This document shows, in pieces, positions 10,533-29,439 of a stretch of 46,756 nucleotides of DNA (the first letter of the stretch is position 1; each line of letters begins with the position of its first letter). This stretch comes from Halococcus salifodinae DSM 8989 (GTDB lineage Archaea > Halobacteriota > Halobacteria > Halobacteriales > Halococcaceae), in assembly GCF_000336935.1 (NCBI RefSeq), contig NZ_AOME01000012.1, positions 1 to 46,756 of the forward strand, given 5' to 3'. A program made the position numbers and the translations under genes. The notes below the pieces were generated by a model, which was given only the letters and a program-made list of their open reading frames with translations, did no database searches and was not told where the DNA came from.

Positions 10533-11183
10533 ACCCGAAGTGATTCGAGCGCGGATACTGTGCCTTGCGGTTTGCTCGGAACACGGCACGCCGACGCACT
10601 GCTCCGATCGTCACCCCGTCACGAGCGACGACCGATCAGCACCCAACACCCATCAGAAAGAGATTCCCGATGTTTCGAGACCGCATTGGGCATCGTGGTC
10701 AGTGGCCACCCCGATGATATCGAAATGGGAGTACGAAACCGCATTTCAACACGAGACACGATCGAGTTCGAACAGATATAGGTACACTCGTGACGATGGT
10801 CAGCAGCCGTGTCCAAGCGACGGCATGTCGACGGCCACATCCCAAATAGTCGATTCGCATTGCTTCATTTCCCTCTTTTCTAGGTTTGGAATCGGTACAT
10901 CAGCTCGGGTACTGGCAGAAATAGTCGTGGATCGTGAGTAGAGTACACCGATAGAGTCCGATCATAACTGTTCAGTACCACGCTTCGTCCCCTCTCGTCA
11001 CGGTTCGATGCTCCCATCGAAACCGCTCGATAGTGAACGGTCGAGATATCGATCGCTGGCCTTCGCGAGAGTCGTACAGACAGATATCGAGTACTTTTCT
11101 CTAATCGATATCGCGGTTGGTTCGGTTCCGGCCGTGGATCACAGTTCGCCACGAAGGTGGATCGTCGGTCCGAGCCGGAACAA
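10533..11183 (+). other. Long intergenic region, no supported gene
   Basis: About 650 nt between the membrane-protein gene and ADH synthase. It is less GC-rich than its flanks. Frames on both strands are short or give low-complexity, basic translations. An AT-rich box, gatatagg (10776-10783), precedes a 17-codon ORF at about 10797 that shows nothing recognisable. The region could hold a non-coding RNA or a decayed gene, but nothing specific is supported. Confidence 0.4.
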
Positions 11184-11191
11184 CTTATAGG
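11184..11191 (+). promoter_or_regulatory. TATA box of the ADH synthase gene
   Basis: The AT-rich octamer cttatagg lies about 27 nt upstream of the ATG at 11214. This is the spacing expected for a leaderless haloarchaeal transcript beginning at or next to the start codon, and it decides the start over the longer open frame beginning at 11157. Confidence 0.7.
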
Positions 11192-11213
11192 GAACAGCAC
11201 GGTGAGACAATCG

Positions 11214-11996
11214 ATGACAGTCGGCGTTACTGCGCGGCTCGACAGGATCGGGACAGACGGACGCATCGTGAACGTGCCGATGGATCACGGGATCACGCTC
11301 GGCGCGGTCGACGGCCTCCGCCGGATCGAGGCGACGATCGACGCGGTGACCCGCGGTGGCGCGGACAGCGTGCTGACCCAGAAAGGGATCGCGCCGCGGG
11401 TCCACCCCAACAAGAACGGGGCCGGCTACATCGTCCACCTGAACGCGTCGACCACGACGGGGCCGGACACCAACGACAAGCGACTCACCGGAACGGTCAC
11501 CGAGGCCATCCGTGCGGGTGCGGACGCGGTCTCGCTCCACGTCAACGTCGGGAGCGACTCCGAACCGCAGCAGCTCGAACAGCTCGCGCAGGTCACGCGA
11601 ACCGCCGCCGAGTACGGAATGCCGGTGCTCGCGATGACCTACGCCCGTGGCCCGGGGGTCGACGAGAGTGATCCCGAGCGTCTCGCCCACGCGGTACGGC
11701 TCGCGGAGGAGGCCGGCGCGGACGTGGCGAAGACGGCCTACAGCGGCGACGCGGCGAGCTACGAACGTGTGACCGAGGCGACGAGCCTCCCCGTCATCAT
11801 GGCCGGCGGCGATCCCGAAGGGAACGAAGCGACGCTCGAAAACGTCCGCGGGGCGATGGACGCGGGTGCGGCTGGCGTCTCGATCGGGCGAACGGTCTTC
11901 CAGCACGACGATCCCGAAGCGATGACGCGCGCGGTCACAGCCGTGGTCCACGACGACCGGTCGGTCGACGACGCCCTCGATCGGGCTGAGTTGTAA
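11214..11996 (+). CDS. 2-amino-3,7-dideoxy-D-threo-hept-6-ulosonate synthase (class I aldolase family)
   Basis: A 260-residue TIM-barrel enzyme of the archaeal DhnA/class I aldolase family. In archaea lacking DAHP synthase it makes the first intermediate of the alternative shikimate route to aromatic amino acids. Visible signatures are VPMDHGITLGAVDGL, PNKNGAGYIVHLNAST, the Schiff-base lysine in DVAKTAYSGD, and the phosphate-binding AGGDPEGNEAT and GAAGVSIGR loops. Length is typical. A fructose-bisphosphate aldolase function is the main alternative, but the NKNGAGY pattern favours ADH synthase. The usual partner, 3-dehydroquinate synthase II, is not adjacent. Confidence 0.85.
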   Translation: MTVGVTARLDRIGTDGRIVNVPMDHGITLGAVDGLRRIEATIDAVTRGGADSVLTQKGIAPRVHPNKNGAGYIVHLNASTTTGPDTNDKRLTGTVTEAIRAGADAVSLHVNVGSDSEPQQLEQLAQVTRTAAEYGMPVLAMTYARGPGVDESDPERLAHAVRLAEEAGADVAKTAYSGDAASYERVTEATSLPVIMAGGDPEGNEATLENVRGAMDAGAAGVSIGRTVFQHDDPEAMTRAVTAVVHDDRSVDDALDRAEL

Positions 11997-12041
11997 GCCG
12001 GCCGCCATTCGAAAACTGCGATAGCGGTCGGCGCGGAGCCG

Positions 12042-12389
12042 TCACTCCTCGCGGTCGGTCCAGAAGTCGAAGCTACGTCCCGGAGCGAAGACGTCGATGG
12101 CGACCGCCCGCTCGTCGCCGGTGTTCTCGACCCGGTGGGACTCCCACGCTTCGAGGTGGACCGAGTCGAAGCGTTCGAGCGTCGCCGAATCCTCCTCGGT
12201 GTGGACGGTGATTTCACCCTCCAGCACGACGCAGACCTGCTCGTTCTCGTGGTCGTGCATCGGTGAGGAGTGGCCCGGCGGCTTCTCGAACCACTCGAAG
12301 GTGAACTGGTCGCTGCCGGCGAGTGAGACTCGACGCCAGCCCTCGTCCGGCTCGTACGTCTCCGCCGCGGCGAAATCAACGTTTCTCAT
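12042..12389 (-). CDS. Small cupin-domain protein
   Basis: A 115-residue single-domain cupin. Metal-site motif 1 is visible as PGHSSPMHDHENEQ, with the EGE that follows in VVLEGEITV, and motif 2 as the WESHRVENTGDERA stretch with its histidine. It probably binds a divalent metal, but the small-molecule target is unknown. The start at 12389 is chosen over 12443 because a TATA-like element (reverse complement of cactattgaata, 12413-12425) lies about 28 nt upstream. It is convergent with ADH synthase, 45 nt away. Confidence 0.8.
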   Translation of the reverse strand: MRNVDFAAAETYEPDEGWRRVSLAGSDQFTFEWFEKPPGHSSPMHDHENEQVCVVLEGEITVHTEEDSATLERFDSVHLEAWESHRVENTGDERAVAIDVFAPGRSFDFWTDREE

Positions 12390-12483
12390 GTGCTTCGTCA
12401 ACGCATCGTTCCCATCACTATTGAATATTGTGGACCCGACCACGGTACCGGCTGCCGCTCGAACGAGCAGCCGAACGGCTCAC

Positions 12484-12543
12484 CGATCGACGGGTGATCG
12501 AGCGACGGGTCATCGATCGACGGGCGACCGAGCGACGGTCGAT
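12484..12543 (+). repeat. 15-bp tandem repeat, four copies
   Basis: Four head-to-tail copies of a 15-mer: cgatcgacgggtgat, cgagcgacgggtcat, cgatcgacgggcgac and cgagcgacggtcgat. Odd and even copies resemble each other more closely, so the array can also be read as two 30-bp units (12481-12510 and 12511-12540). It lies between the cupin start and the end of the SDR gene. Each unit contains a short self-complementary core (cgatcg or similar). Confidence 0.85.
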
Positions 12544-12556
12544 CGGCGATCCCCGA

Positions 12557-13348
12557 TCAGAGGTTCGCAGCACCCGCACCGCCGTCGATCGGGATCGAGA
12601 CGCCGTTGAGATAGCTCGACCGGGGCGAGCAGAGGAAGGCGACGACCTCGCCGAGCTCCCGGGGTTCGCCGATGCGTTCGAGCGGGATTCCTTCGGCGCG
12701 TGCGGCGAGGCCCTCCTCGTAGGAGTCGTACTCGCCGCGCTCAACCGACTGCTCGACGAGCTCCTCGATCCGGCTCGTCTCGTGCGGGCCGGGCAGCACC
12801 GCGTTCGCTCGGACCTCCGGGGCGAGCTCCTTCGAGAGCGTCTTTTCGAGCCCGACGACGCTCATCCGGACCGAGTTCGAGAGCACCAGCGAGTCGATGG
12901 CCTCCTTGACGCTTCGGGAGGCGATGGTGACGATCGTGCCGCCGTCGCCGTCTTGGAGGTGCGGAGCGGCCTCGCGGACCAATCGAACCACGCTCATCAC
13001 GAGGAGGTCGAACGCGTGATACCAGTCCTCGTCGTCGGTCTCCATGAACGGGCCGCTCGGCGGTCCGCCGGCGCTGGTCACGAGATGATCGAGTCCGTCG
13101 AACTCCTCGACGGTCGCCGTCACGAGCGCTTCGACGTCCTCCTTTCGAGTGAGATCGCCAACGACGCCGACCACGCTGCCCTCGCCGAGCGCGTCGAGCT
13201 CCGCGACGGCCTCGTCGAGTCGGTCCTCGTCCCGGCCGTTGAGCACCACGTTCGCGTCCTCCTCGGCGAGCACCGCTGCCGAGGCACGCCCGAGACCGCT
13301 GCTCGATGCTGTCACCAGTGCCACGTCGTCCGCCACGTCGAGACTCAT
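12557..13348 (-). CDS. SDR-family oxidoreductase lacking the catalytic tyrosine
   Basis: A 263-residue Rossmann protein of the short-chain dehydrogenase/reductase superfamily. The nucleotide loop reads TASSSGLGRA instead of TGxxxGxG, and the adenine-ring motif is present as SAGGPP. The region that usually carries YxxxK reads SNSVRMSVVGLEKTLSKEL, so the catalytic tyrosine is missing, and an arginine occupies the region. This matches the BKR-like SDR subgroup known to lack a canonical tetrad. An oxidoreductase role is uncertain. The C-terminus PIDGGAGAANL is typical. It is about 100 nt downstream of the aldehyde dehydrogenase gene on the same strand, so it may share its transcript. Confidence 0.88.
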   Translation of the reverse strand: MSLDVADDVALVTASSSGLGRASAAVLAEEDANVVLNGRDEDRLDEAVAELDALGEGSVVGVVGDLTRKEDVEALVTATVEEFDGLDHLVTSAGGPPSGPFMETDDEDWYHAFDLLVMSVVRLVREAAPHLQDGDGGTIVTIASRSVKEAIDSLVLSNSVRMSVVGLEKTLSKELAPEVRANAVLPGPHETSRIEELVEQSVERGEYDSYEEGLAARAEGIPLERIGEPRELGEVVAFLCSPRSSYLNGVSIPIDGGAGAANL

Positions 13349-13446
13349 AGCAGTCGAAACCGTGGTCGCCCGCCACTTAGTCGTTCTGTTGCTCCAGCGT
13401 GGAGCGCGAATCGGAAAACGACGGACGGAGAACTCCTCGTCGGCGC

Positions 13447-14979
13447 TCAGTCCTCGTCGGTCAGGATGTCGGCCGACAGTCCCTGTGCCATCTGAATACC
13501 CTCCGAGTTGTTGAGCGTCCACGCGGTGCGCTCGGTGACGGCCTCGATGACCTCGCGTGCGCTGGGGTAGCCGTTGCCCGACTTCTTGACGCCGCCAAAG
13601 GGCAGCTGGACCTCGGCACCGATACACGGCAGATTGCCGTAGGCGAGCCCGACTTCGGCGTTGTCGCGGAAGTAGTTGATCTCGCGGTAGTCCTCGGAGA
13701 TGATCGCGCCCGCGAGCCCGTACTCGGTGTCGTTGTGGAGTTCGACGGCGTCCTCGATGTCACCGGAGTACTTCAGGAGAGCGACGTGGGGGCCGAAGAC
13801 CTCCTCGTGAGTTACGCGGAGGTCGTCCTCTGGGTCGGCCTCGTAGACGAACGGCCCGATCCAGTGACCCTCATCGTGACCCGCCGGAATCTCCTCGTCG
13901 TCGAGGTCCGCGCGGTCGACGAGCACGTTGACGTCCTCGTCGCGTGCGAGGTCGTTGTAGTCGGTGACCTTCTCTTGGTGATCGGGCTCGATCAGCGGCC
14001 CCATGAACGTGTCTTCTTCGAGGGGGTCGCCGACCGCAACGTCCTCTGCGGCGTCGACGAAGCGTTCTTTGAACTCGTCGTAGCGATCCTCGTGGACGAG
14101 GAGCCGTTCGCTCGATACGCAGCGCTGTCCGGTGGTTTTGAACGAGCTCATCACCGCGGAGTGAACTGCGGTGTCGAGGTCGGCTTCGCTGGTGACGACG
14201 ATGCCGTTCTTGCCACCCATCTCACACGCCGCAAGTTTTCCGGGCTCGCTACCAACAGTAGAGGCGATCTCCTGACCGACGTCTGCCGACCCGGTGAACA
14301 GCACGGTGTCCACGCGGTCGTCGTCAACGATGGTCTCGCCGGCGTCGCCGTAGCCCTGGACCATGTTGAACACGCCGTCGGGGATGCCGCTCTCCGCGAA
14401 CATCTCGGCGATGACCTGCCCGCACCACGGCACTTGTTCGGCGGGTTTCCAGACGACGGTGTTGCCTTCGACCAGCGTGACCGCCATGTGCCAGAACGGG
14501 ACTGCGACCGGGAAGTTCCACGGCGTGATGCAGCCCACGACGCCACGAGGGCTCCGACGCATGTAGGCGTCCTTGCCAGGGATTTCGGACGGCACGACGT
14601 CGCCGTGGGGATGGCGAGCGTTGCCGGCGGCCCATTCGACCATATGCCACGCCTCGGTCACGTCGGCTTTCCCCTCGGAGATCTCCTTCCCGCACTCCTT
14701 GGTAATGACTTCACCGAGCTCGTCGTGACGGTCCTTGAGCTCGTGGTAGATGTCCCAGAGGTACTCCGCGCGGTCGGTGTACGACAGCGCGCTCCACTCC
14801 TCGAAGGCCTCGTCGGCGGCCGCGAGCGCCTGATCGACGTCGGCGTCCGTCCCACGCTGGAACTCGCCGAGCGTCTCGCCCGTCGCCGGGTTGGTGCTCT
14901 CGAACGTTTCGGTCCCCTCGCCGTCGGTCCATTCGCCGTCGACGTAGTGTTGCGACGGCTCGCTGAGCTGCTGACTCAT
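13447..14979 (-). CDS. NAD(P)-dependent aldehyde dehydrogenase
   Basis: A 510-residue ALDH superfamily enzyme that oxidises an aldehyde to a carboxylate in the cytoplasm. Landmarks in order are TPWNFPVAVPFWHM with the cofactor lysine in VVWKPAEQVP, the Rossmann loop FTGSADVGQEI, the general base in CEMGGKN, the nucleophile Cys at about 287 in TTGQRCVSSERL, and the EEVFGPHVAL motif. It lies next to a Na+/proline-type symporter and near a proline-dehydrogenase-like gene, so a P5C dehydrogenase or a ketoglutarate-semialdehyde dehydrogenase are both plausible substrate assignments. Sequence alone does not decide between them. Confidence 0.93.
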   Translation of the reverse strand: MSQQLSEPSQHYVDGEWTDGEGTETFESTNPATGETLGEFQRGTDADVDQALAAADEAFEEWSALSYTDRAEYLWDIYHELKDRHDELGEVITKECGKEISEGKADVTEAWHMVEWAAGNARHPHGDVVPSEIPGKDAYMRRSPRGVVGCITPWNFPVAVPFWHMAVTLVEGNTVVWKPAEQVPWCGQVIAEMFAESGIPDGVFNMVQGYGDAGETIVDDDRVDTVLFTGSADVGQEIASTVGSEPGKLAACEMGGKNGIVVTSEADLDTAVHSAVMSSFKTTGQRCVSSERLLVHEDRYDEFKERFVDAAEDVAVGDPLEEDTFMGPLIEPDHQEKVTDYNDLARDEDVNVLVDRADLDDEEIPAGHDEGHWIGPFVYEADPEDDLRVTHEEVFGPHVALLKYSGDIEDAVELHNDTEYGLAGAIISEDYREINYFRDNAEVGLAYGNLPCIGAEVQLPFGGVKKSGNGYPSAREVIEAVTERTAWTLNNSEGIQMAQGLSADILTDED

Positions 14980-15069: not shown

Positions 15070-16584
15070 TCAGTCCTGGGCGGCCGGCGTCCCGGTGGTC
15101 GCCTCGGTCGGCTTCTCGCGCGGCCAGAGCAACGAGGCGGCGATCGCGGCGGCGAAGCCGATGGGCGGCGCGACGAGCCGGACGGTGACGATCGAGGTCA
15201 GTCCGAGCGTGATCCAGAGCACGGTGGCGACCGGACCGACGACGAACGCGGCAACGAGTCCAGCCTTCGAGAACCGATCACGCCAGAAGAACAGCAGCGT
15301 GAACGCCGGCCCAAACGCCGAGAACAGCCCGGTCGCGGAGTAGCTCACGAGGGTGTAGACGAGGTTCTCGACCGAGATCGCGATGGTCAGCCCGACCGCG
15401 CCCACGAGCAGCGTCGCGATCCGGGAGATCCGGAGTCGAGTCGCCTCGCTGAACTCGCGGTTCTTCGTGACGACCTTGTTGTACACGTCCTGTGCGGCGG
15501 CGGAGCTCGCCACGACGAGCTGGGAGTCCGCCGTCGACATCATCGCGGCGAGCGCGCCAGCGAGCAACACCCCGCCGAGCAGTCCGGGAGTGTGTTCGAG
15601 CACCATGAACGGTAGCACCATCTCGCGGTCGGTCACGACCGTCTGGGGTGCGCCGTGGAGGACGCGCGTCAGGAGCCCGAGGAGCACCGCACCGATGGCG
15701 GTCAGCACGCCCCAGACCGACGCCACGACGATCGCCGTCCGGCGATCCCGATCGCTGCGGAGTGCCATCATCCTGACGTTCAGGTGGGGATAGCCACCGA
15801 AGTACGCGAAGAGCCAGCTCAGGTTCGCGCCGAGCAGGACGAGCGCCGCCGCACCGCTCTTGCCGCCGAACCACGACGCTCGGCCGCCGCCCGAGGCCGC
15901 AAGCCCACCCATCAGCGACTGGTTGGGATCAGTGATGACCCCCGCGAGCAGGACGCCAGGCAGCACGATCAGCGTGAAGATCATCAGGAGTGCCTGCATC
16001 GCGTCGGTCCAGACAACCGCGAGGAACCCGCCCGCGAGCGAGTAGAGGATGATCAGCGCCGCGACGATCAGGAGTCCAGTCAACGGTGCGATTCCGAAGA
16101 TCTGCTCCAGGATCTTCCCACCGGCGAGGAACTGCGAACCGACGTAGCCCATGTAGAACAGAAACGTCACCAGCGCCGGCAGCAGGCGCACGATCGGGGA
16201 GTCGGTCGGCATCTTTTCCGCGAGGAGCCCGATCGGCGTGATCGCTCCCGTCTCCTTGCGGCCCTCCATGAACGGCCGTGCGAAGATGAGCCACTGGACG
16301 ATCGCCCCGCCCGCCGTGCCGACGAGCACCCAGACCGACGACAGCCCCGCCGACCACGCCAACCCGGGAATCCCGAGCAGCAGCCAGCCCGACATCCCGG
16401 AGCTCCGTTCGGAGAGCGCGAGCGCCCACCCAGGAAGCTGTTCGCCGCCGAGGAAGAAGTCCTCCTCGGAGCTGACCTTCTTCGATCCCCAGTAGCCGAT
16501 GACCACGACCACCAGCAAGTAGCCGACCAAGCCGACGGCTGTGTACGCACCTGCTTGTACCATGTGTTGCGTGCCTCCGGGCAT
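15070..16584 (-). CDS. putP: Sodium:solute symporter, PutP (proline)-like
   Basis: A 504-residue protein with about 13 predicted helices, of the SSS family. PutP-type landmarks are visible: the KKVSSEEDFFLGGEQLPGW loop after helix 1, SERSSGMSGWLLLGIPG, and the Na+-site helix 8 region with ALAAMMSTADSQLVVASSA. It would import proline with sodium. The start ATG at 16584 is chosen because a TATA box (tataat, 16605-16610) lies about 24 nt upstream; ATGs at 16605 and 16563 are alternatives. It is 90 nt upstream of the aldehyde dehydrogenase gene on the same strand, a gene pairing that fits proline use. Confidence 0.9.
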   Translation of the reverse strand: MPGGTQHMVQAGAYTAVGLVGYLLVVVVIGYWGSKKVSSEEDFFLGGEQLPGWALALSERSSGMSGWLLLGIPGLAWSAGLSSVWVLVGTAGGAIVQWLIFARPFMEGRKETGAITPIGLLAEKMPTDSPIVRLLPALVTFLFYMGYVGSQFLAGGKILEQIFGIAPLTGLLIVAALIILYSLAGGFLAVVWTDAMQALLMIFTLIVLPGVLLAGVITDPNQSLMGGLAASGGGRASWFGGKSGAAALVLLGANLSWLFAYFGGYPHLNVRMMALRSDRDRRTAIVVASVWGVLTAIGAVLLGLLTRVLHGAPQTVVTDREMVLPFMVLEHTPGLLGGVLLAGALAAMMSTADSQLVVASSAAAQDVYNKVVTKNREFSEATRLRISRIATLLVGAVGLTIAISVENLVYTLVSYSATGLFSAFGPAFTLLFFWRDRFSKAGLVAAFVVGPVATVLWITLGLTSIVTVRLVAPPIGFAAAIAASLLWPREKPTEATTGTPAAQD

Positions 16585-16711
16585 CGGTACCACACCTCCC
16601 CACATATAATTAGTGATCGTTATTCCCGATAGAGGAGCTGAAAATTACCCGTCGCGGTCGTCGTGTTCGGGCGAAAAGCAGTCTCTGAGGTGTCTTCTCG
16701 ATCGTTTGGGG

Positions 16712-17973: not shown

Positions 17974-19131
17974 TCAGTCGATGACGGTGCCCTCTTCGAG
18001 GTGGACGCCACGATCGAACCGGTCGGCTTCCAGCGACGAGACATCGACCAGCGATGGCTCGTCCTCGTCGATCAGCTCCGCGACGAGCTGGCCGGTCGCG
18101 GGGGCCTGCATGAACCCGTGGCCCGAGAACCCTGCCGCGGTCACGAACCCCGGCAGCGTCTCGCCGAGGATGGGGTGATGGTCGGGCGTCACCGCGTAGA
18201 GCCCGGCCCAGCCGCGCTTGACCCGCGAGTCGGGGCCGAAGTAGTCGGCGCAGTCGGCGGCCGCCTCGATCGTCTCGGCGGCCCAGTCGAGATCCATCTT
18301 CTTCCGGTAGTCGTTCGGGTCCATCGCCGGGTCGGCGTCCGCAAAGTGACCACCGACGACCGCACCGCCGTCGCGCTCGGGGCGGAAGTGGACGCCCCGA
18401 TCGTGGTCGATCGTGAACGGTATCGAGGAACCGACCGGGATCTCGGGATCGGCCACCATGAGCTGGCGTCGCCGTGGAACGATCGGGAGATCGAGACCGA
18501 CCATCTCGCCGATCCGGCTCGCCCACGCACCCGCCGCGTTCACCACGTACTCCGATTCGATCGTCCCCTCGTCGGTGCGGACGCCGGTCACGCGGTCGCC
18601 CGCCCCCTTCTGAAGCACGTCGGTCACCGCGACGCCGGTTCGGATCTCTGCACCGGCCTCGTTCGCTGCGGCCGAAAACCCCTGGAGCGCGAGGTGGGGG
18701 TCCGCGAACCCGTCGGCCGCGCGGTACGTCGCCCCGCAGAACTCCTCGGTCCGGAGCTCGGGACACCGATCCTCGGCTTCCGCGGGCGTCAGGAACTCGC
18801 TGTCGACCCCGAGACGGTTCTGCTGGCGGACGTTCTCGCGGAACCGCTCGGCGGTCGATTCACGCCGCGCGAGGAACAGATAGCCCGGCCGACGGTAGCC
18901 GATCTCGGTGCCGAACAGCTCCTCGAAACGCTCCCAGACCGCGATGCTCTCCTGTGAGAGGTGTGCGCTCACCGGCGAGGAGAACTGGGCACGGATGCCG
19001 CCGTTCGCTCGGTCGGTGCTGCCCGATCCGAGAGTGGATTTCTCGAGGACGACCACGTCGACGCCGCGCTGACCGAGGTAGTGGGCGGCGGCCAGCCCGA
19101 CGATCCCGCCGCCGATGATACTCACCCGCAT
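17974..19131 (-). CDS. FAD-dependent DAO-family dehydrogenase, proline dehydrogenase beta-like
   Basis: A 385-residue flavoprotein. The N-terminus holds the dinucleotide fold GGGIVGLAAAHYLG. It then follows the order known from archaeal dye-linked L-proline dehydrogenase beta and sarcosine oxidase beta: GSGSTDRANGGIRAQF (FAD contact), RRPGYLFLA, FLTPAEAEDRCPEL, ADGFADPHLA, RGWAGLYAVTPDHHPILGE, and FSGHGFMQAPATGQLVAELI near the C-terminus. It would oxidise an imino or N-methyl amino acid and pass electrons to the membrane. A sarcosine or D-hydroxyproline substrate remains possible. The ATG at 19131 has a TATA box (tacataatt, 19154-19162) 27 nt upstream, which rules out the much longer open frame to 19767. 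It is divergent from the racemase-superfamily gene. Confidence 0.85.
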   Translation of the reverse strand: MRVSIIGGGIVGLAAAHYLGQRGVDVVVLEKSTLGSGSTDRANGGIRAQFSSPVSAHLSQESIAVWERFEELFGTEIGYRRPGYLFLARRESTAERFRENVRQQNRLGVDSEFLTPAEAEDRCPELRTEEFCGATYRAADGFADPHLALQGFSAAANEAGAEIRTGVAVTDVLQKGAGDRVTGVRTDEGTIESEYVVNAAGAWASRIGEMVGLDLPIVPRRRQLMVADPEIPVGSSIPFTIDHDRGVHFRPERDGGAVVGGHFADADPAMDPNDYRKKMDLDWAAETIEAAADCADYFGPDSRVKRGWAGLYAVTPDHHPILGETLPGFVTAAGFSGHGFMQAPATGQLVAELIDEDEPSLVDVSSLEADRFDRGVHLEEGTVID

Positions 19132-19262: not shown

Positions 19263-19319
19263 ATGGTACACGCGAGAATCGATACGGCCGAGTGCGGAGT
19301 GAGTGCGAGCGAACCATGA
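19263..19319 (+). CDS. 18-codon leader ORF coupled to the racemase-superfamily gene
   Basis: The ATG at 19263 lies about 28 nt downstream of a strong TATA box (19231-19238), the leaderless position. The frame encodes 18 residues (MVHARIDTAECGVSASEP) and ends in a TGA at 19317-19319 that overlaps the next gene's ATG at 19316 in an ATGA arrangement. No Shine-Dalgarno sequence is obvious close to 19316, so ribosomes ending the short ORF could restart there. It could be a real leader peptide or an artefact of start choice. Confidence 0.5.
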   Translation: MVHARIDTAECGVSASEP

Positions 19320-20344
19320 CGACGGACGGTGTGGAGTGGCATCCCCCGACCGACTGGACGACGATCGAAACGATCGATACGCACACTGGCGGGGAGCCGC
19401 TGCGGGTCGTGCTCGACGGACTGCCGCCGCTCGTGGGCGACACGGTCCTCGAAAAGCGCCGGTACGTGGAACGCGAACTGGACGCGTACCGCAAGGCCCT
19501 GATCTGGGAGCCCCGCGGGCACGCCGACATGTACGGCGCGATCCCGACCGCACCGGACACTGAGCGCGCGGATTTCGGCGTACTGTTCATGCACAACGAG
19601 GGGTACAGCACGATGTGTGGCCACGGAATCGTTGCGCTCGCCACGATCGCCGCCGAGACCGAGTACCTCCCGGACGTCGAGAACGAGATCGCGATCGACA
19701 CCCCGGCCGGGCTCGTGGTCGCCGAGATCGAGCGCGACGGCGACCGGGTCGACGCGGTCGAGTTCACGAACGTGCCGTCGTTCGTCGTCGCCAGAAACGA
19801 GACCGTGAGCGTTCCGGAGTGGGGAACGATCGAGTTCGACGTTGCGTTCGGCGGCGCGTTCTACGCGTACTGCGACGCCGGCCAGTTCGACGTCGACCTC
19901 ACGCCGGCCGAGTTCCGAGACCTGATCGAGATCGGGACGACGGTCACGCGCGCGGTCGACGACGCCGTCGAGATCGAGCATCCCTACGAGGACGATCTCG
20001 GCTTCCTCTACGGCACGATCCTGACGGGTGACGCCCACACCGACGCCGACAGCCGGAACGTCTGCGTGTTCGCCGACGGCGAGGTCGATCGGTGTCCCAC
20101 AGGGACGGGCGTCAGCGGCCGGGTCGCGCTCCGTGCCGCGGCCGGCGAGCTCGACAGGAGAGAACGGTTCGTGGTCGAGAGCATCGTCGGCTCGACGTTC
20201 GCGGGTTCGTACATGGAAACTACCGACTTCGGCGAATATGACGCGGTTCGACCACGTGTGGAAGGTTCCGCACATATCACCGGCCGACACCAGTTCGTCG
20301 TCGATCCGGCGGACCCGTTCGACGAGGGGTTCGTGCTCCGGTGA
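19316..20344 (+). CDS. Proline racemase superfamily, probable trans-3-hydroxy-L-proline dehydratase
   Basis: A 342-residue enzyme of the proline racemase fold. The first active-site residue is Cys101 in STMCGHGIVAL. The second site, DR-C-P-T262-GTGVSG, has threonine where racemases and 4-hydroxyproline epimerases have cysteine (DRSPCGTGT). The Cys/Thr pair is the known mark of trans-3-hydroxy-L-proline dehydratase, which makes delta1-pyrroline-2-carboxylate. Other family landmarks are DTHTGGEPLRVV at the start and the metal-free GRHQFVVDPADPF end. The start at 19316 follows the overlapping leader ORF; an upstream in-frame GTG at 19292 is less likely. It stands divergent from the FAD enzyme and upstream of an M24 peptidase. 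Confidence 0.85.
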   Translation: MTTDGVEWHPPTDWTTIETIDTHTGGEPLRVVLDGLPPLVGDTVLEKRRYVERELDAYRKALIWEPRGHADMYGAIPTAPDTERADFGVLFMHNEGYSTMCGHGIVALATIAAETEYLPDVENEIAIDTPAGLVVAEIERDGDRVDAVEFTNVPSFVVARNETVSVPEWGTIEFDVAFGGAFYAYCDAGQFDVDLTPAEFRDLIEIGTTVTRAVDDAVEIEHPYEDDLGFLYGTILTGDAHTDADSRNVCVFADGEVDRCPTGTGVSGRVALRAAAGELDRRERFVVESIVGSTFAGSYMETTDFGEYDAVRPRVEGSAHITGRHQFVVDPADPFDEGFVLR

Positions 20345-20534: not shown

Positions 20535-21722
20535 ATGTCACGCACCGAGCGGCCGACCCCGAACTACGGAGCCATCGAAACCGAACTCGACGAGCAGGAC
20601 GCGGCTGCATACGTCCACATCGGTGACGAACACGACCCGATGCTCCAGTATCTGACGCGCTTCGACGGTCCCGACCGAGAGTACGCGTTCGTCTATGCCG
20701 GCGGCGAGGCGACGCTCTGTGCGCCCGCCCTGTTCGGCGATCAGGCGCGCCGGGAGTTTCCTGGGGACACTGTGACCGAAGCCGGCAGCGACCGTCCGTC
20801 GGCCGTCGCCCGTGCCACCGACGTGATCGACGCCCCCTCATCGTCGCGCGTGCTCGTCCCGGCCTCGCTCCCCCACCACGCGTACCAAGAACTCGCGTCG
20901 GTCGGCTACGAGATCGTCACGACGTCGACGCTCGAAACGAGTCGGGAACGGAAGACCGCCTTGGAGATCGAGTGGCTCCGTCGAACGGAGGCCGCCACAC
21001 AGGCGGCGATGCGCCGAGCGGAGGCGATCCTCGCCGACGCGACGCCATCGGGCGAGGAGCTGTGCTGGGAGGACGAACCGCTCACCACCGAGCGGCTCCG
21101 GCGCGCGATCAACGCGGCACTCGCGAGACAGGGGGCCGCGGCTGTCGGCAACACCGTCGTCGGGGCGGGACCGAGCTGCGCCGATCTCCACTACAACGGC
21201 GACGATATCATCCGACCGACTGAGACGGTGTTGATCGATCTGGGGCCGCGGGGTCCCGACGGGTACTTCGGGGACATGACGCGGACGTTCGTCCCCGGAA
21301 CGGTGCCGGAATGGGAACGCGAGGCGTACGAGACTGTCGCCGCCGCGCTCGACGCCGGCCTCGACCGACTCGACGACGCACCCGGAATCCCGGCGAACGA
21401 GGTCCACGCGACGATCGTCGATGTCGTCGAGGCGAACGGGTTCGCGACCGGCGACGTCGACGTGGGGCTCTATCACGGGACGGGCCACGGGGTCGGGGCC
21501 GCGCTTCACGAGCCACCCTTCTTCTCGACCGACGCACGCCTCGAACCGGGCCACGTCGTCACGATCGAGCCGGGCGTGTACGACCCCGAAAGAGGGGGCG
21601 TGCGGCTGGAAGATCTCGTTCTCGTCACGGACGACGGCATCGAGAACCTCGTCGAGTACCCCTGTCGGATCACGCCCCGCGAGAAGGAGGCAGACGGTCG
21701 CAGCGAATCTGCCGCGGACTAA
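20535..21722 (+). CDS. M24-family Xaa-Pro dipeptidase-like metallopeptidase
   Basis: A 395-residue pita-bread peptidase with an N-terminal creatinase-type domain (about 1-145) and a catalytic M24 domain. All five dinuclear metal ligands are present: D235 and D247 (LIDLGPRG...GDMTRTF), H318 ([12 protein letters not shown]), E345 (TIEPGVY) and E359 ([10 protein letters not shown]). It should cleave Xaa-Pro dipeptides in the cytoplasm. The ATG at 20535 has a TATA-like catttagg about 27 nt upstream (20503-20510), so it can be transcribed on its own. It lies 190 nt after the hydroxyproline enzyme and ends 55 nt before the convergent dipeptide transporter operon. Confidence 0.92.
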
Positions 21723-21777
21723 ACGTAACGGCGACACGAGCAACGACTGCGTTCACCGCCATCCGACGGTCCAACGC

Positions 21778-22782
21778 TCAGTCGTGGAGGTGACACGCAC
21801 ACCAGTGGTTCGACTCGATCTCGTCGAGTTCGGGCGTTTCGTCCTCGCAGACCTCACCGATGTACTTCGGACACCGGGTATGGAACCGACAGCCCGAGGG
21901 CGGTGATTCCGGGCTCGGCACGTCGCCTTCGAGCACGATCCGGTCGTCGCTCGACTGAGCGGACGCTCGCGGCACGGCCGAGAGCAGCGACTGGGTGTAG
22001 GGATGTTTCGGGTCGTCGAACAGCCGGTCCGTCGGGGCGACTTCGACGAGCTCGCCGAGGTACATGACCGCGACGCGATCGCAGATGTGCTTGATGACGC
22101 TGAGGTCGTGACTGATGAACAGATACGTCAGATCGTAGGTATCCTGAAGATCGTCCATCAGGTTCAGGATCTTCGCCTGAACGCTCACGTCGAGCGCACT
22201 CGTCGGCTCGTCCGCGACGACGAGTCTGGGATTGACGCTGAGCGCACGCGCGATCGCGATGCGCTGTTGTTGACCGCCGGAGAACTCGTGGGGTGATCGT
22301 CGGAGGTGGCTCTCGTTCAGTCCGACTTCCTCGATTAGCTCGAGCGTCCGGGACTCGCGTTTGTCCGTCGACCAGTCAGTCAGCGACCGCATCGGCTCCT
22401 GAATGAGCTCCGCAACGGTCATCCGGGGGTTGAGGCTCGACGCAGGGTCCTGAAAGACGATCTGGAGGTTCCGACGGACGTCCCGGAGCTCCGATCGCGA
22501 CGTACTCGTGATGTCCGTGCCGAGGAACTCGATTCGACCGTCCGTCGGGTCATGGAGCCGGAGAACGGTCTTCCCAAGCGTGGACTTGCCGCAACCCGAC
22601 TCGCCGACCAACCCGAGTGTCTCGCCTGATTCGAGACCGAAGTTCACCCCATCGACCGCTTTCACGTCCGAAACGTGGCGGTTCAGGATACCGCCGGTTA
22701 CTGGGAAGTACTTTTTCAGATCCGTTACCTCGAGGACCGTCTCGTTCGCCGTATCGGCTGACTCGGGTTTGTAAACACTCAT
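21778..22782 (-). CDS. Dipeptide/oligopeptide ABC transporter ATPase, DppF/OppF-like
   Basis: A 334-residue ATPase. Walker A is GLVGESGCGKSTLGKT, Q-loop QDPASSLNPRM, signature SGGQQQRIAIARAL, Walker B VVADEPTSALD, switch His in FISHDLSVI. The C-terminal oligopeptide-transport region carries a cysteine set in GCRFHTRCP and CACHLHD, thought to bind an Fe-S cluster in this family. It couples ATP hydrolysis to peptide import. It is the last gene of the five-gene operon, and its ATG overlaps the stop of the sister ATPase by ATGA (22779-22782). Confidence 0.95.
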   Translation of the reverse strand: MSVYKPESADTANETVLEVTDLKKYFPVTGGILNRHVSDVKAVDGVNFGLESGETLGLVGESGCGKSTLGKTVLRLHDPTDGRIEFLGTDITSTSRSELRDVRRNLQIVFQDPASSLNPRMTVAELIQEPMRSLTDWSTDKRESRTLELIEEVGLNESHLRRSPHEFSGGQQQRIAIARALSVNPRLVVADEPTSALDVSVQAKILNLMDDLQDTYDLTYLFISHDLSVIKHICDRVAVMYLGELVEVAPTDRLFDDPKHPYTQSLLSAVPRASAQSSDDRIVLEGDVPSPESPPSGCRFHTRCPKYIGEVCEDETPELDEIESNHWCACHLHD

Positions 22783-23834
22783 GGATTTTCTTCCGTTGGA
22801 ACTTCGTTAGCGCCGTTGACCGACGGATCGGAAACCGGCCACGGCGGCGTCGCCTCGCTCACGTCCGTATAGAGATGACAAGACACCTCGTGATTCTCGC
22901 CACACGGCGTGAGTTCAGGGTCGTGGGCGTCGCAGACTTCGCCGATGTATTGGGGACACCGCGACGAGAACCGACACCCTGACGGCGGCTCGTGAAGGTC
23001 TGGAACGACACCCTCGATAGTCGGGAGCCGCTCCGTGGTGGTGTCCAGCGAGGGAATGCTTTCGGCTAATGCACGACTGTAGGGATGAAGCGGGTTGTCG
23101 AACAGGTCCGCCACCGAGCAGTGTTCTGCGACGGTTCCGGCGTACATCACGGCGACCCGATCCGCGATGTCGCTGACGACGCCGAGGTCGTGGCTGATGA
23201 ACAGGACGCTCATCTCGAAGCGGTCCTGGAGATCGCGGAGGAGGTCCATGATCTGAGCTTGGATCGTGACGTCGAGCGCGGTCGTCGGTTCGTCCGCGAT
23301 CAGGAGCTGTGGCTCCGTGACGAGCGCCATCGCGATGACGATGCGCTGGCGCATCCCACCGGAGAGTTCGCTCGGATACTGCTCCATCAGCCGGGCCGGG
23401 TCCGCGAGGCCACACGCATCGAGCATCTCGACTGCGCGCTCGCGTGCTTCGGCCTCCGACTGATCGGTGTGGGTTAGAAGTGGCTCGGTCAGTTGGGAAC
23501 CGACGGTCAGAACGGGGTTGAGCGACGTCATCGGATCCTGGTAGATCATCGCGATCTCGTTGCCGCGGATTTGATCCATCTCCTTCCGGGAGAGATCGAG
23601 GAGGTTTCGTCCCTCGTACTCGATCGTCCCGCCGACGATCTCCGCGGGCGGCGATTGAAGCAGCCCCATCGTCGAAAGCGCGGTGACGCTCTTCCCACAC
23701 CCCGATTCCCCGATGACGCCGAGGACCTCGTCGCGGCCGACATCCATCGAAACGCCGTCGAGCGCCTCGACGGTCCCGTCCTCGGTGTGAAAGTGAACCT
23801 GCAGATCGTGAATGCTGAGCAGTGGTTCGTTCAT
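22779..23834 (-). CDS. Dipeptide/oligopeptide ABC transporter ATPase, DppD/OppD-like
   Basis: A 351-residue ATPase with Walker A GVIGESGCGKSVTALS, Q-loop YQDPMTSLNPVL, signature LSGGMRQRIVIAMAL, Walker B LIADEPTTALD, switch His FISHDLGVV and the C-terminal cysteine set CRFSSRCPQYIGEVCD. The ATG at 23834 is chosen over the much longer open frame because it begins with the conserved NEPLLSIHDLQVHF sequence and lies 5 nt after the upstream permease stop. It pairs with the next ATPase. Confidence 0.95.
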   Translation of the reverse strand: MNEPLLSIHDLQVHFHTEDGTVEALDGVSMDVGRDEVLGVIGESGCGKSVTALSTMGLLQSPPAEIVGGTIEYEGRNLLDLSRKEMDQIRGNEIAMIYQDPMTSLNPVLTVGSQLTEPLLTHTDQSEAEARERAVEMLDACGLADPARLMEQYPSELSGGMRQRIVIAMALVTEPQLLIADEPTTALDVTIQAQIMDLLRDLQDRFEMSVLFISHDLGVVSDIADRVAVMYAGTVAEHCSVADLFDNPLHPYSRALAESIPSLDTTTERLPTIEGVVPDLHEPPSGCRFSSRCPQYIGEVCDAHDPELTPCGENHEVSCHLYTDVSEATPPWPVSDPSVNGANEVPTEENP

Positions 23835-23839
23835 ATCGA

Positions 23840-24742
23840 TCACTCCGCTTGTTTTGGGTCGAGTGCGTCTCGGAGGCCGTCCCCGAAGGCGTTGAACCCG
23901 ATGACCGTGACCATGATCGCCAGGCCCGGGAACGTGGCAATCCACCAGGCGCTGTCGATTTCGCCACGGCCCGCGGAGATGAGCGCGCCCCACTCGGGTT
24001 TCGGGGGCTGGACTCCCATCCCGAGAAACGACAGCGCCGCGCTCCAGAGGATGACCGTCGGGATCGTCAGGGTCGCGTAGACGATGATGCTCGACGCGGC
24101 GTTCGGCAGGAGATATCGCGTGATCACACGGATGTCGCTCACGCCGGCAGCCTTGGCCGAGTCGATGTACTCCTCTTCCATGACGCTCTTTACGTCTCCG
24201 CGGACGAGCCGGGTAAACCCGCGCCAACCGACGAGACTCACCGCGATGACGAGCGGGAAGATACCGCCACCGAGCGTTCCTGCGATCGCCAGTGCGAGCA
24301 CGATGGCAGGGATCGAAAGCGCGATGTCGACGACACGCATGATGGCCGACTCGACGTACCCACCGTAGTAGCCGGCGACGAGACCGAGCGTGACACCGAT
24401 CACCATCTGGATCCCGACGATCACGACGCCGAGGAAGACAGTGTAGCGAGCCCCGTACACCACCCGGGAGAACACGTCGCGACCGTACGTGTCCGTCCCG
24501 AACGGGTGCTCCAGACTCGGCGGCTGCATCAATGCCTCGTAGTTTTGTACGCTCGGCTCGTACGGCGCAATATACGGGGCGAGCGCGGCCACGAGCACGA
24601 GGAGGGCCACGATCCCGAGGCCGAAGACGGCGAACTGACTGCGTGCGAGCCGTCGCAGGAGTACCCTCCAGCGCGCGTCGACGCCGAGCCCGGCCGAGCC
24701 CGCATCCGGTCGATCGGAGCGTTCTCTGGATTCGGTTGCCAT
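23840..24742 (-). CDS. Dipeptide ABC transporter permease, DppC/OppC-like
   Basis: A 300-residue permease with an N-terminal helix (about 30-52), a periplasm-facing loop with the family motif HPFGTDTYGRDVFSRVVYGAR, and five further helices. The cytoplasmic EAA loop, in the SAKAAGVSDIRVITRYLLPNA segment, contacts the ATPase. It forms the channel heterodimer with the DppB-like permease. It lies 88 nt after that gene in the operon. The serine/arginine-rich cytoplasmic N-terminus (residues 1-27) is not conserved-looking. Confidence 0.94.
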   Translation of the reverse strand: MATESRERSDRPDAGSAGLGVDARWRVLLRRLARSQFAVFGLGIVALLVLVAALAPYIAPYEPSVQNYEALMQPPSLEHPFGTDTYGRDVFSRVVYGARYTVFLGVVIVGIQMVIGVTLGLVAGYYGGYVESAIMRVVDIALSIPAIVLALAIAGTLGGGIFPLVIAVSLVGWRGFTRLVRGDVKSVMEEEYIDSAKAAGVSDIRVITRYLLPNAASSIIVYATLTIPTVILWSAALSFLGMGVQPPKPEWGALISAGRGEIDSAWWIATFPGLAIMVTVIGFNAFGDGLRDALDPKQAE

Positions 24743-24830
24743 CAGCTACCACCACTCCACGGACGGTTGTGAATGTTTTGCATCCACCGATCGAGTCGGT
24801 TGGCGTGATCTCTCAAACGTCTTTTCTAAT

Positions 24831-25772
24831 TCACTCATACGAGATTCGGGGATCGAAGTAGCTGTATGTGATGTCGACTGCGAGGTTCGCGATCACGACG
24901 ATGACCGCGTAGATCAGGACGGCACCCTGCACGACCGGGTAGTTACGGGCCGTCACCGCGTCGACAAGCAGTCGGCCCATCCCGGGCCACGAGAACACCG
25001 TCTCGATGACGACAGTTCCCGAAAAGATGAGCGGGATCTGAAGCCCGATCAGCGTGATGATCGGGATCATGGCGTTTTTCATCGCGTGAGTGTAGATGAC
25101 TGCCGTCTCCCCGATCCCTTTCCCGCGGGCGGTGCGGATGTAGTCCTCGTTGAGCACTTCGAGCATCGACGATCGCGTCATGCGTGTCAGAAGTCCTGCG
25201 CGTCTCGTCCCGGTCGCGATGGCGGGAAGTGCGATGTACGAGAGCCACGTCACCGACAGAATCGCACCCTGTAACCCGGAGATCGGGAACATGTCGAGGC
25301 GGACCGAGAAGACGAGGATCAACAACAGCCCGAGCCAGAACGAGGGCATCGAGATCCAGAAGATGGCGAACAGCATCGAGACGTTGTCGACCCACGTGTA
25401 CTGCTTGACCGCACTGATCACACCCAGCGGGAGCGCAATGACGAGCGTAATGATCATCGCGACCACCGCTAGCTCGACGGTCGGGACGATCCGCTCGGCG
25501 ATCATCGCACTCACTTCGCGTCCTCCACGAATCGATTCGCCGAGGTCGCCCTGGACGACGCCGGCCATCCAGTCGAGGTAACGGATGTGTGGCGGTCGGT
25601 TCAATCCCATCTGTTGTTCGAGTGCGTATATCGCTTCCGGGGTGGCGCTCGATCCGAGCGCGATGCGGGCCGGGTTCCCGGGAGTGATGTAGACGACCGA
25701 CGAGATGACGATAGTCACCCCGATGAGGACGGGGATGGTCACCAGCAGCCGACGAACGATGTACTTGTACAT
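24831..25772 (-). CDS. Dipeptide ABC transporter permease, DppB/OppB-like
   Basis: A 313-residue permease that starts with the canonical MYKYIVRRLLVTIPVLIG helix, continues with the extracytoplasmic PGNPARIALG loop and has six helices in all. The EAA loop is present as IRTARGKGIGETAVIYTHAMKNA. It makes the translocation pore with the DppC-like partner and is 24 nt downstream of the binding-protein gene. The length is typical of the family. Confidence 0.95.
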   Translation of the reverse strand: MYKYIVRRLLVTIPVLIGVTIVISSVVYITPGNPARIALGSSATPEAIYALEQQMGLNRPPHIRYLDWMAGVVQGDLGESIRGGREVSAMIAERIVPTVELAVVAMIITLVIALPLGVISAVKQYTWVDNVSMLFAIFWISMPSFWLGLLLILVFSVRLDMFPISGLQGAILSVTWLSYIALPAIATGTRRAGLLTRMTRSSMLEVLNEDYIRTARGKGIGETAVIYTHAMKNAMIPIITLIGLQIPLIFSGTVVIETVFSWPGMGRLLVDAVTARNYPVVQGAVLIYAVIVVIANLAVDITYSYFDPRISYE

Positions 25773-25796
25773 TGAGTGGTAGTTGAAACGTCGTGG

Positions 25797-27563
25797 TCAG
25801 AGATCGAGTTCCGTGTGCCGAAGGTATTCTTTCACCGGCCACCACTGGTGGTCGTTCACCATCGTCTCGATTCCCGTGACCGAGTTCGTGTGCCCGAGGA
25901 TCTTGTTGTAACCGTTGATTGGGACGACCGGCGCTTGATCCTGAACGATGAGCTGCGCGTCGACCAACGCCTGGTGGCGCTCCTCGTCGCTCGTGACGCG
26001 CTGGGCCTTGTCGATGAGGCTGTCGAACTCCTCGTTCTCCCAGAGCGAGTAGTTCGTTCCACCCTTCTTCGCACTCCGGGCACTCGTGAGCGTCGCCGAG
26101 AGGGTGTTGATCGAGAACTGGCCACCGTACGCCATCACGACTAGATCGTGCGCCCCGCCTTCGAGTTCGTTGTAGAGCGTTCCGGCTTCGAGCACGCGGA
26201 GGTTGACGTCGAACCCGACGTCTCCAAGCATCGGTTGTACCGTCGTCCCGATGCTCTTCTCTCGGGGGATCGAGAACGTCAGAAAGTCTATCGAGAGCTT
26301 GGTCCCGTCTTTCGACCGGGTCTGCCCCTCGCCCGAGTTGGTCCAGCCGGCCTCTTCAAGCAACTGCCGTGCTTTCTTCTGATCGAACTGCTGGCCGGTC
26401 TTTTTCGCCTGCTCTTTGTCGAGCGAGTTCTTCGAGAACGGCGTCATCAGCGCCCAGATCTTGTACCCCTCGCCGTCGAGCGCTGCTTTGATAACGGCCT
26501 CTTTGTTGATGGCGTGATCGGCCGCTTTCCGGACGTTCACGTCGTCCATTGGCGGTTTCTGGGTGTTCGGGCACAGGTACGACTGGCGGACGAATTTCTT
26601 TCGCTTGAGGCCGGTGTTCGCGTTCTCCTCCACCTTTTTCGCGTCGGAGAGCAGGATCGACTTCGAGAGGTGGACGCCACCGTCGGTGAGCTCGTTCAGC
26701 AGCGTCGTCGGCTCCGGGTGGGACTCGAATCGGAACTGGCTGACCTTGCCGGGGCCACGGTTTTCGAGCCAGTTCGGTCCCCAGTCGTACTCGTCGAAAC
26801 GTTCGGTCTGGATGTACGACCCTTGCGACCACTCGGCGAACTTGTACGGTCCGGTCCCGACCACGGTATCGAAGCCGTACCTGTCGCCCGCATCCTCGGC
26901 GGCTTTCTTCGAGACGAGCGCAGTGTGCCAATCGGTCAGGCCCTGGGGCAGGAGTGCAAACGGCTCGTCGTAGGTTACGGTGACTTCTTGATCGCCCGTA
27001 ACCTCCGTCTTCGCTAGCACACTGTCGCCAACGAGATACGACTGTGAGGACTCAGAAAGGAAGCGTTCGAGGTTCCAGCGGGCCACCTCGGCGGTGAGTT
27101 TCTCGCCGTTGTGGAAGGTGATGCTGTCCTCGATCGTCATCGTGTGCTCGGTGGCGTCGTCGTTCACCGAGTAGTCCTTCGCGAGGTGAGGAACCGGTTT
27201 CAACTCCGGGTTCACCCTGAACAGGGGTTCGTTGATCGCGAACAGCACCTCCTGAGTCCCGATCCGCGTGGCTTTGTGTGGGTCAAGCGGTTCGTCGCCG
27301 CCCATTCCCGTGTTCTGTCCGATGATAAGCGTCTGGTCGTTGCCGCCACTATCGCCACCCGTCCCATCGGAACTGCCGTTCGCCCCGTCACCACTTTCGT
27401 TTCCTTGTTTGCTGGATCCTGCACCACCCTGACTGTCGTTTCCTCCGCCACCGTTTCCACCGGCACAGCCGGCGACCGTCACGAGTACGCCCGTCGCGCC
27501 GATGCGTTTGAGATATCTCCGCCGGTCGACGCTTGAACGCCCACTATCCGCTTCGCGTGCCAT
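25797..27563 (-). CDS. Dipeptide ABC transporter substrate-binding lipoprotein (SBP family 5)
   Basis: A 588-residue extracellular peptide-binding protein. The N-terminus has a twin-arginine signal (VDRRRYLKRIG) and a lipobox VAGC, followed by a long low-complexity Gly/Ser/Asn linker with acidic residues typical of haloarchaeal Tat lipoproteins. The family 5 fold follows, with QEVLFAINEPLFRVNPEL, YKFAEWSQGSYI and MAYGGQFSINT stretches. It captures peptides and delivers them to the DppBC channel. The ATG at 27563 is chosen over the GTG at 27575 because the TATA-like box (27587-27595) sits 28 nt away. It heads the operon and is divergent from the M24-fold gene at 27717. Confidence 0.93.
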   Translation of the reverse strand: MAREADSGRSSVDRRRYLKRIGATGVLVTVAGCAGGNGGGGNDSQGGAGSSKQGNESGDGANGSSDGTGGDSGGNDQTLIIGQNTGMGGDEPLDPHKATRIGTQEVLFAINEPLFRVNPELKPVPHLAKDYSVNDDATEHTMTIEDSITFHNGEKLTAEVARWNLERFLSESSQSYLVGDSVLAKTEVTGDQEVTVTYDEPFALLPQGLTDWHTALVSKKAAEDAGDRYGFDTVVGTGPYKFAEWSQGSYIQTERFDEYDWGPNWLENRGPGKVSQFRFESHPEPTTLLNELTDGGVHLSKSILLSDAKKVEENANTGLKRKKFVRQSYLCPNTQKPPMDDVNVRKAADHAINKEAVIKAALDGEGYKIWALMTPFSKNSLDKEQAKKTGQQFDQKKARQLLEEAGWTNSGEGQTRSKDGTKLSIDFLTFSIPREKSIGTTVQPMLGDVGFDVNLRVLEAGTLYNELEGGAHDLVVMAYGGQFSINTLSATLTSARSAKKGGTNYSLWENEEFDSLIDKAQRVTSDEERHQALVDAQLIVQDQAPVVPINGYNKILGHTNSVTGIETMVNDHQWWPVKEYLRHTELDL

Positions 27564-27716
27564 GTGATCAGACACCGGACCTGGAGATCATAAACATTCC
27601 CATGGTTTGTGTGACAATTTCCGGATGGCGATAGTGGCGATCGGGACGGAAGCTTATGGAACGAGTCATCAGGGTGACTAACAACACTTATCATGACGTC
27701 AATCGCGGACTAGAAC
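27564..27716 (+). promoter_or_regulatory. Divergent promoter of the dipeptide transporter operon and M24-fold gene
   Basis: Two TATA boxes point outward: gtttatgat on the minus strand (27587-27595) and cttatca on the plus strand (27687-27693), each about 27 nt from its ATG. Between them are two small palindromes, TTGT-gtg-ACAA (27607-27617) and AGTCA-n6-TGACT (27664-27679). The latter stands just upstream of the rightward TATA box, where a regulator could act. The element GTCATCAGG inside it also occurs just upstream of the iclR TATA box. Confidence 0.55.
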
Positions 27717-28934
27717 ATGGCATCAGTTACCGTGCCGACGGCGGAGTACGAGGATCGCATCGATCGCGTCCGCGACGAGCTCGCGGCAACCGACGCCGAC
27801 GCGCTCTGTCTGTTCTCTGCGACCGCGATCGAGTGGGTCAGCGGGTTCCATCACCTCCAGACCGAGCGTCCGGTTTGTCTCACGGTCACGCACGACCGCG
27901 TGGGGCTGACGGTCCCACGGCTCGAACTCGATCGCGCCGAGAGCGACGAGTTCCCGCTCCTCGACGAGGTGTATCACTACTACGACTATCCGGGCGGCAC
28001 GACCGAGGGAACCACCTACTACGAGCACTCGACCGCGACGCCCGAGGAAACGATCCGTGAGATGCTCGCCGACCTCGACGCCGTGACCGTCGTCGCGGAC
28101 ACGAACGGTGCGCCGAGCTTTTGGGGGTACTCCGGCCCTTCACTCGACGAACTTGCCGATGTCGACGTCGAGACCGTGGAGTGGATCGAGACCTTTCGCG
28201 AGTCGAAATCCACGGTCGAACGCGAGCTGCTCCGCGAGTCCGCGAAGTGGGGCAATCTCGCCCACCGGAAGCTCGCGGAGTACGTCGAACCAGGCAAACA
28301 CGAACTCTGGGTTGCCAAACGCGCCAGTCTCGACGCCTCGATGGCGATGCTCGACACGCTCGGGGAACGGTACGACTCGCGGCTCCGTGGCGGCTTCCCA
28401 GCGTCGTGTGGATTCCTCTCTGGCCCGAACACCGCGCTCCCGCACGGCCTGACCGAGAACCGCCGACTCGATCGCGGCGACGTCATCATCACTGGGGCGT
28501 CAGCGAACGTCGGCGGGTACCTCACCGAGCTCGAACGCACCATGTTCGTCGGCGAGGTCAGCGACGAACACCGCCACTACTTCGAGCACATGCGCGAGAT
28601 GCAGCGCCTCGCGATCGAGGCGTGCGGCCCCGGCGTCCCCGTCGCCGACGTCGACCAGGCGGTCCACGACTACTGTCACGAGCAGGGGCTCCTCGAGTAC
28701 ACCCAGCACCACACCGGCCACAACATCGGTCTGGAAGGCCACGAGCGCGGCTTCCTCGATCGCGGCAGCGACGACGTGATGAAGCCCGGCTACCTCTACA
28801 CGATCGAACCGGCGTTGTTCGTCCCCGACGTCGCGGGCTATCGCCATTCCGACACGATCCTGATCACCGAGGAAGGTACCGAGTCGCTGACGTACTATCC
28901 GAAAGACCTCGAGAGCAACATCATTCGCTGCTGA
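27717..28934 (+). CDS. M24-fold (creatinase/prolidase-like) protein with altered metal ligands
   Basis: A 405-residue protein with a creatinase-type N-domain and a pita-bread C-domain. Some M24 landmarks are kept: PHGL, HHTGHNIGLEGHE, TIEPALF. At the positions of the two bridging aspartates, ITGASANVGGYLTELERTM has T/G and E instead of D and D. The last glutamate of GVRLED is replaced by GYRHSDTIL. The dinuclear metal site is therefore probably absent, as in creatinase, which uses His and Glu without metal. A hydrolase acting on an imino-acid or guanidino substrate is possible. It sits divergent from the dipeptide transporter and near iclR. A TATA box lies at 27687-27693. Confidence 0.85.
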   Translation: MASVTVPTAEYEDRIDRVRDELAATDADALCLFSATAIEWVSGFHHLQTERPVCLTVTHDRVGLTVPRLELDRAESDEFPLLDEVYHYYDYPGGTTEGTTYYEHSTATPEETIREMLADLDAVTVVADTNGAPSFWGYSGPSLDELADVDVETVEWIETFRESKSTVERELLRESAKWGNLAHRKLAEYVEPGKHELWVAKRASLDASMAMLDTLGERYDSRLRGGFPASCGFLSGPNTALPHGLTENRRLDRGDVIITGASANVGGYLTELERTMFVGEVSDEHRHYFEHMREMQRLAIEACGPGVPVADVDQAVHDYCHEQGLLEYTQHHTGHNIGLEGHERGFLDRGSDDVMKPGYLYTIEPALFVPDVAGYRHSDTILITEEGTESLTYYPKDLESNIIRC

Positions 28935-28937
28935 CGG

Positions 28938-29075
28938 TCAGACGGGAGATATCTCGTGGACAATGGGTGAGCGCTCGATGCCACCCTCCGTCACGCACAC
29001 CGTGTCGGAATGACGGAATCCGCCGATGTCCGGAACGTAGAACCCCGGCCCAGGGGTGAACAGCTCTCCAGTCAC
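28938..29075 (-). pseudogene. C-terminal remnant of another M24-family protein
   Basis: Reading the minus strand from 29075 to the TGA at 28938-28940 gives 45 residues with the C-terminal M24 pattern: LFTPGPGFYVPDIGG then FRHSDTVCVTEGG. It resembles the tail of the neighbouring gene (LYTIEPALFVPDVAGYRHSDT) but is inverted and lies 3 nt from its stop. Upstream of 29075 the M24 fold cannot be followed. This is the only surviving piece of a third M24 gene in this spot, most likely left by deletion or recombination. Confidence 0.7.
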
Positions 29076-29400: not shown

Positions 29401-29439
29401 CGTTCGGTCATCAGGAACAACCTATTTACGAACCGAACG
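29401..29439 (+). promoter_or_regulatory. Inverted repeat bracketing the iclR TATA box
   Basis: CGTTCGGT (29401-29408) and ACCGAACG (29432-29439) form a perfect 8-bp inverted repeat. They enclose the TATA-like ctattta (29422-29428), which is about 30 nt upstream of the iclR ATG at 29455. A protein bound to both arms would cover the site of TBP binding. This is a strong candidate for an autoregulatory operator. Confidence 0.6.

Follow-up and report, generated by a model that had tools for sequence, protein, structure and literature searches.

Genes at the Locus

The window analysed here is a stretch of 46,756 nucleotides from Halococcus salifodinae DSM 8989 (contig NZ_AOME01000012.1, positions 1 to 46,756). 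A 342-codon open frame on its forward strand, at 19316-20344, encodes a 342-amino acid protein of the proline racemase superfamily. The cysteines of this protein are at positions 101, 186, 250 and 260; Cys101 lies in MCGHG, and Cys260 and Thr262 lie in DRCPTGTGV. The coordinates, motifs and residue numbers (Cys101, C260, T262) given in the initial annotation were all confirmed by translation. The GC content and third-position GC of the frame are like those of the neighbouring genes, and thus show no sign of an artefact or of a recent foreign gene. A search of the genome found this protein as its sole Pro_racemase-family member. The features discussed below are as follows.

19316..20344, + strand: predicted dehydratase gene (Pfam and NCBIfam matches, alignment, tree and structure model)
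19616..19618, + strand: Cys101 codon, predicted general base in MCGHG, invariant in the alignment
20093..20095, + strand: Cys260 codon, at the Ser position of the usual DRSP, a natural Ser/Cys variant
20099..20101, + strand: Thr262 codon, standing in for the second catalytic Cys of racemases, invariant in the alignment
17974..19131, - strand: FAD-dependent DAO-family oxidoreductase, divergent neighbour, also beside the dehydratase in related loci L117, L118 and L119
16712..17944, - strand: class I/II aminotransferase (profile matches), recurring in related loci
15070..16605, - strand: sodium:solute symporter, closest to the PutP proline family though under that family's cut-off
13447..14979, - strand: aldehyde dehydrogenase, 82% identical to the enzyme of haloarchaeal locus L130
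20535..21722, + strand: M24 (Xaa-Pro peptidase-like) metallopeptidase (profile matches)

A block of genes recurs, whole or in part, in haloarchaea. It includes the dehydratase, DAO oxidoreductase, aminotransferase, symporter and aldehyde dehydrogenase together with an SDR, a cupin protein and an IclR regulator.

Family and Catalytic Residues

The window protein matches the Pfam Pro_racemase family with an E value of 1.6e-102. The top NCBIfam model is that of T3Hyp dehydratase (NF045511, 385 bits), compared with 324 bits for the proline racemase model. The score is below the curated NF045511 cut-off of 540, which is a limit for annotation and does not define the enzyme biochemically, as were those of all four other homologues tested (360-415 bits), one of which adjoins a putative reductase; the cut-off therefore seems to be set narrowly. 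The MCGH columns and D258, R259, P261, T262 and G263 are unchanged in 26 aligned homologues, an alignment that leaves out L104 and L090, and this invariance places the motifs far beyond chance. In the tree, a branch with 100% support parts all Cys-Thr members from all Cys-Cys members.

Cys-Cys, Cys-Thr and Ser types of the superfamily have been described, and the dehydratase and reductase of T. litoralis have been published (PMC4364671). Crystal structures of an archaeal T3LHypD exist, and one of these, PDB 6r76, is the best solved relative of the window protein by sequence (E 6.6e-118). Identity to this T. litoralis enzyme is 52% over 336 aligned residues, and to human L3HYPDH 45% over 328 residues. 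Met100, Cys101, Tyr183, Thr262 and Thr264 align with T. litoralis Met103, Cys104, Tyr188, Thr268 and Thr270, and, in an alignment that is gap-free near the site, Cys101 and Thr262 correspond to human Cys104 and Thr273. The triad of the T. litoralis enzyme is formed by the Met, the Tyr and Thr270, while Cys104 and Thr273 engage the substrate in the human enzyme (PMC9309405). All T. litoralis substrate-contact residues that were compared are present in the window protein (Met100, Tyr183 and Thr264; roles from PMC9309405).

An AlphaFold2 model of the protein, with a mean pLDDT of 91, places Cys101 and Thr262 each directly N-terminal of a helix. The top structural match of the model is again 6r76, with a Foldseek TM of 0.93 and a Z of 48.5 (rmsd 1.8 over 336 residues); for the T. 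cruzi racemase the Z is 45.9. Racemases and 4-hydroxyproline 2-epimerases have two catalytic Cys, or Ser and Cys, on opposite faces. In the window protein Thr262 occupies the second site and Cys260 lies two residues off.

The initial annotation took the Cys/Thr signature to predict a T3Hyp dehydratase, and this reading is supported by the gap-free alignment, the Cys-Thr clade and the pathway genes in related clusters. Dehydratase activity is thus a supported prediction, drawn from the alignment, the tree, the structure match and gene context. Promiscuity, which is known for some members of the superfamily (PMC4113996), counts against it.

By family chemistry, trans-3-hydroxy-L-proline would lose its alpha-proton to Cys101, which in its acid form would aid the departure of the 3-hydroxyl group. 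Thr262, in place of a second Cys, would block reprotonation from the opposite face, so that the reaction is predicted to yield delta1-pyrroline-2-carboxylate (Pyr2C) and no epimer.

The Predicted Route to Proline and Glutamate

Trans-3-hydroxyproline is known to be converted to Pyr2C, which is reduced to L-proline by a reductase of the OCD or Ldh2 family, followed by proline oxidation. No reductase gene is present in the window; the ornithine cyclodeaminase-family (OCD) gene of this genome is on contig 13. Its product would convert Pyr2C to L-proline, which in turn may be converted to glutamate by a proline dehydrogenase and the aldehyde dehydrogenase of the window. We infer these partners from gene linkage and orthology.

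The linkage is seen in related loci. An OCD-type gene is present in 41 of 79 bacterial dehydratase loci in which the flanking DNA was examined; among the annotated bacterial loci with such a gene, one has an Xaa-Pro peptidase gene between the OCD and the dehydratase. In one haloarchaeon (G046, locus L130), the dehydratase frame comes directly after an OCD frame; nearby, the aldehyde dehydrogenase gene is right behind that of a proline dehydrogenase. In another (G035, locus L120), some 2 kb separate the OCD and dehydratase genes. The contig-13 OCD is 65% identical to the OCD of G046 and 72% identical to that of G035. Contig 13 also carries the proline dehydrogenase of the genome, which is 59% identical to that of L130. 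Since the closely similar L130 aldehyde dehydrogenase directly follows a proline dehydrogenase, the enzyme of the window is likely to be a glutamate-semialdehyde dehydrogenase.

At a threshold of E < 1e-40, the contig-13 OCD was matched in 24 of 25 genomes with a Cys-Thr gene, the exception being 72% complete, vs. 17 of 31 control genomes chosen as lacking one (Fisher p 6e-4), which were hand-picked, with kinship uncorrected, and seven of which have PF05544 matches of unread Cys/Thr class. This co-occurrence is supportive only. The other candidate for the Pyr2C reductase, of the Ldh2 type, is represented by a single gene on contig 100, and no such gene was seen in those flanks of related dehydratase loci that were examined; for this reason the OCD is preferred.

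Neighbouring genes may have parts in the same metabolism. The closest solved relative of the DAO oxidoreductase is 1y56 chain B (E 4.7e-63; runner-up 1.8e-35), which we take to be the beta subunit of the P. horikoshii L-proline dehydrogenase, and a role as proline dehydrogenase is plausible. The T. litoralis cluster likewise contains such a proline dehydrogenase (PMC4364671). Possible functions of the others are glutamate disposal for the aminotransferase, (hydroxy)proline uptake for the symporter, and supply of (hydroxy)proline from peptides for the M24 metallopeptidase.

The SDR, the cupin protein and a DhnA-type aldolase of the conserved cluster do not fit into the known route. One may therefore ask whether the haloarchaeal enzyme, still a Cys-Thr dehydratase, acts on another hydroxylated imino acid, such as a dihydroxyproline, in a different catabolic route. 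Points in favour are these conserved genes, superfluous to the known pathway, which along with the FAD/DAO oxidoreductases around the dehydratase might serve such a route, the NCBIfam score under the equivalog cut-off, and the existence of the gene module without the dehydratase. In the part read of a Natrononativus amylolyticus plasmid, similar genes occur without a dehydratase gene, accompanied by peptidases and a peptide transporter. Another substrate is nevertheless improbable, given that the compared contact residues are all as in T. litoralis T3LHypD and that OCD, proline dehydrogenase and aldehyde dehydrogenase genes are linked in L130. The window protein is very probably a Cys-Thr trans-3-hydroxyproline dehydratase, whose product would pass via the putative OCD reductase to proline and glutamate.

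Cysteine 260

The initial annotation considered C260 an unusual neighbour of the active site that could alter its chemistry. This view found no support, as DRCPTG is recurrent: the motif was readable in 99 Cys-Thr homologues, of which 75 carry DRSPTG and 24 DRCPTG (one of the latter a duplicate record, left out of the tree). The carriers include haloarchaea of several families, Chloroflexota, Bacteroidota and one symbiont MAG. The Ser/Cys state at this position must have changed at least seven times on a tree of 120 sequences, or six times when only well-supported branches are counted, these numbers being approximate for a quick tree with several long branches. Cys260 aligns without a gap with the non-catalytic Ser of DRSP (T. 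litoralis Ser266, human Ser271). By its distribution it appears to be a recurrent, neutral-looking natural Ser/Cys variant.

Redox control of a T3Hyp dehydratase by Cys260, for example through a disulphide with Cys101, would be analogous to the Cys104-Cys137 disulphide formed by the active-site Cys of the human enzyme (PMC9309405). Since the window protein has Thr129 at the place of the human partner Cys137, the partner's role could fall to a different residue. Such control is highly improbable, since many other haloarchaeal members have Ser at the 260 position.

A reading of the protein as a proline racemase or 4-hydroxyproline epimerase, in which a displaced Cys260 would serve as the second catalytic Cys, is scarcely credible: superfamily and fold are shared with racemases, whose sequence and structure scores are high, and a thiol is present two residues from their second site, but Cys260 lies off the catalytic position and swaps with Ser among Cys-Thr relatives, and the Cys-Cys members, which have DRSPCG, carried Cys at 262 in all cases read and at 260 in none. 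Alignment and distribution both led us to reject C260 as the second catalytic residue, and the placement of C260 at the catalytic site, which the initial annotation had named as grounds for refutation, is not seen; it is Thr262 that aligns with the Thr in the active sites of T. litoralis T3LHypD and human L3HYPDH.

The Gemmatimonadota homologues L029, L037, L042, L050, L055 and L066, which form one supported clade, have the active-site loop DRSPTGTAVS instead of DRSPTGTGVS.

Relation to Known Enzymes

The enzyme is an ordinary one, of a family known in bacteria, archaea and humans. The T. litoralis T3LHypD (6r76, 6r77) shares with it the Cys/Thr pair, the Met-Tyr-Thr contacts, the fold, an archaeal host and the pathway partners. 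It differs in having Ser where the window protein has Cys260, and its gene is clustered with those of the reductase and proline dehydrogenase, whereas the reductase gene of the window genome is on another contig. Human L3HYPDH (7qpo) has the same catalytic pair and fold, but the window protein lacks its disulphide partner. The Cys-Cys proline racemases and hydroxyproline epimerases (HjProR, TlProR, 6j7c), of the same superfamily and fold and also found in haloarchaea, form a separate clade and have a second Cys in place of Thr262. The Ser/Thr-type T3Hyp dehydratase of Agrobacterium vitis (4k7g) has the same predicted reaction as the window protein, but has Ser in place of Cys101 and is about 28% identical. 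The Ser/Thr type is convergent, and genome-neighbourhood reasoning has been applied to the superfamily (PMC4113996).

The earlier remark that archaeal members are less characterised than bacterial ones needs to be narrowed. An archaeal T3LHypD has been crystallised and, according to work cited in PMC4364671, already assayed; the remark stands for the haloarchaeal branch, for which an open-access search found no T3Hyp dehydratase in the literature beyond the Cys-Cys HjProR. The addition made here is modest: a reconstruction of the trans-3-hydroxyproline route in haloarchaea, the genes of which are in part scattered. It puts this breakdown on firmer ground and names a likely reductase. In annotation of the superfamily, the difference between DRSP and DRCP should not be taken for a functional switch.

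Other Features of the Window

The DhnA-type aldolase, cupin protein, SDR and DAO oxidoreductase genes (11157-13450 and 17974-19131) form a recurrent haloarchaeal module, which also occurs without the dehydratase. The aldolase scores above the ADH synthase cut-off and is one of two copies in the genome, the other being on contig 76. Within 20535-32399, three M24 peptidase-like genes and a gene for an IclR regulator surround a peptide-type ABC transporter (21778-27575), an arrangement that suggests uptake and cleavage of Xaa-Pro-like peptides. Between IclR and M24 genes, at 30473-31153, lies the gene for the haloarchaeal cell-shape protein Rod-determining factor A (RdfA).
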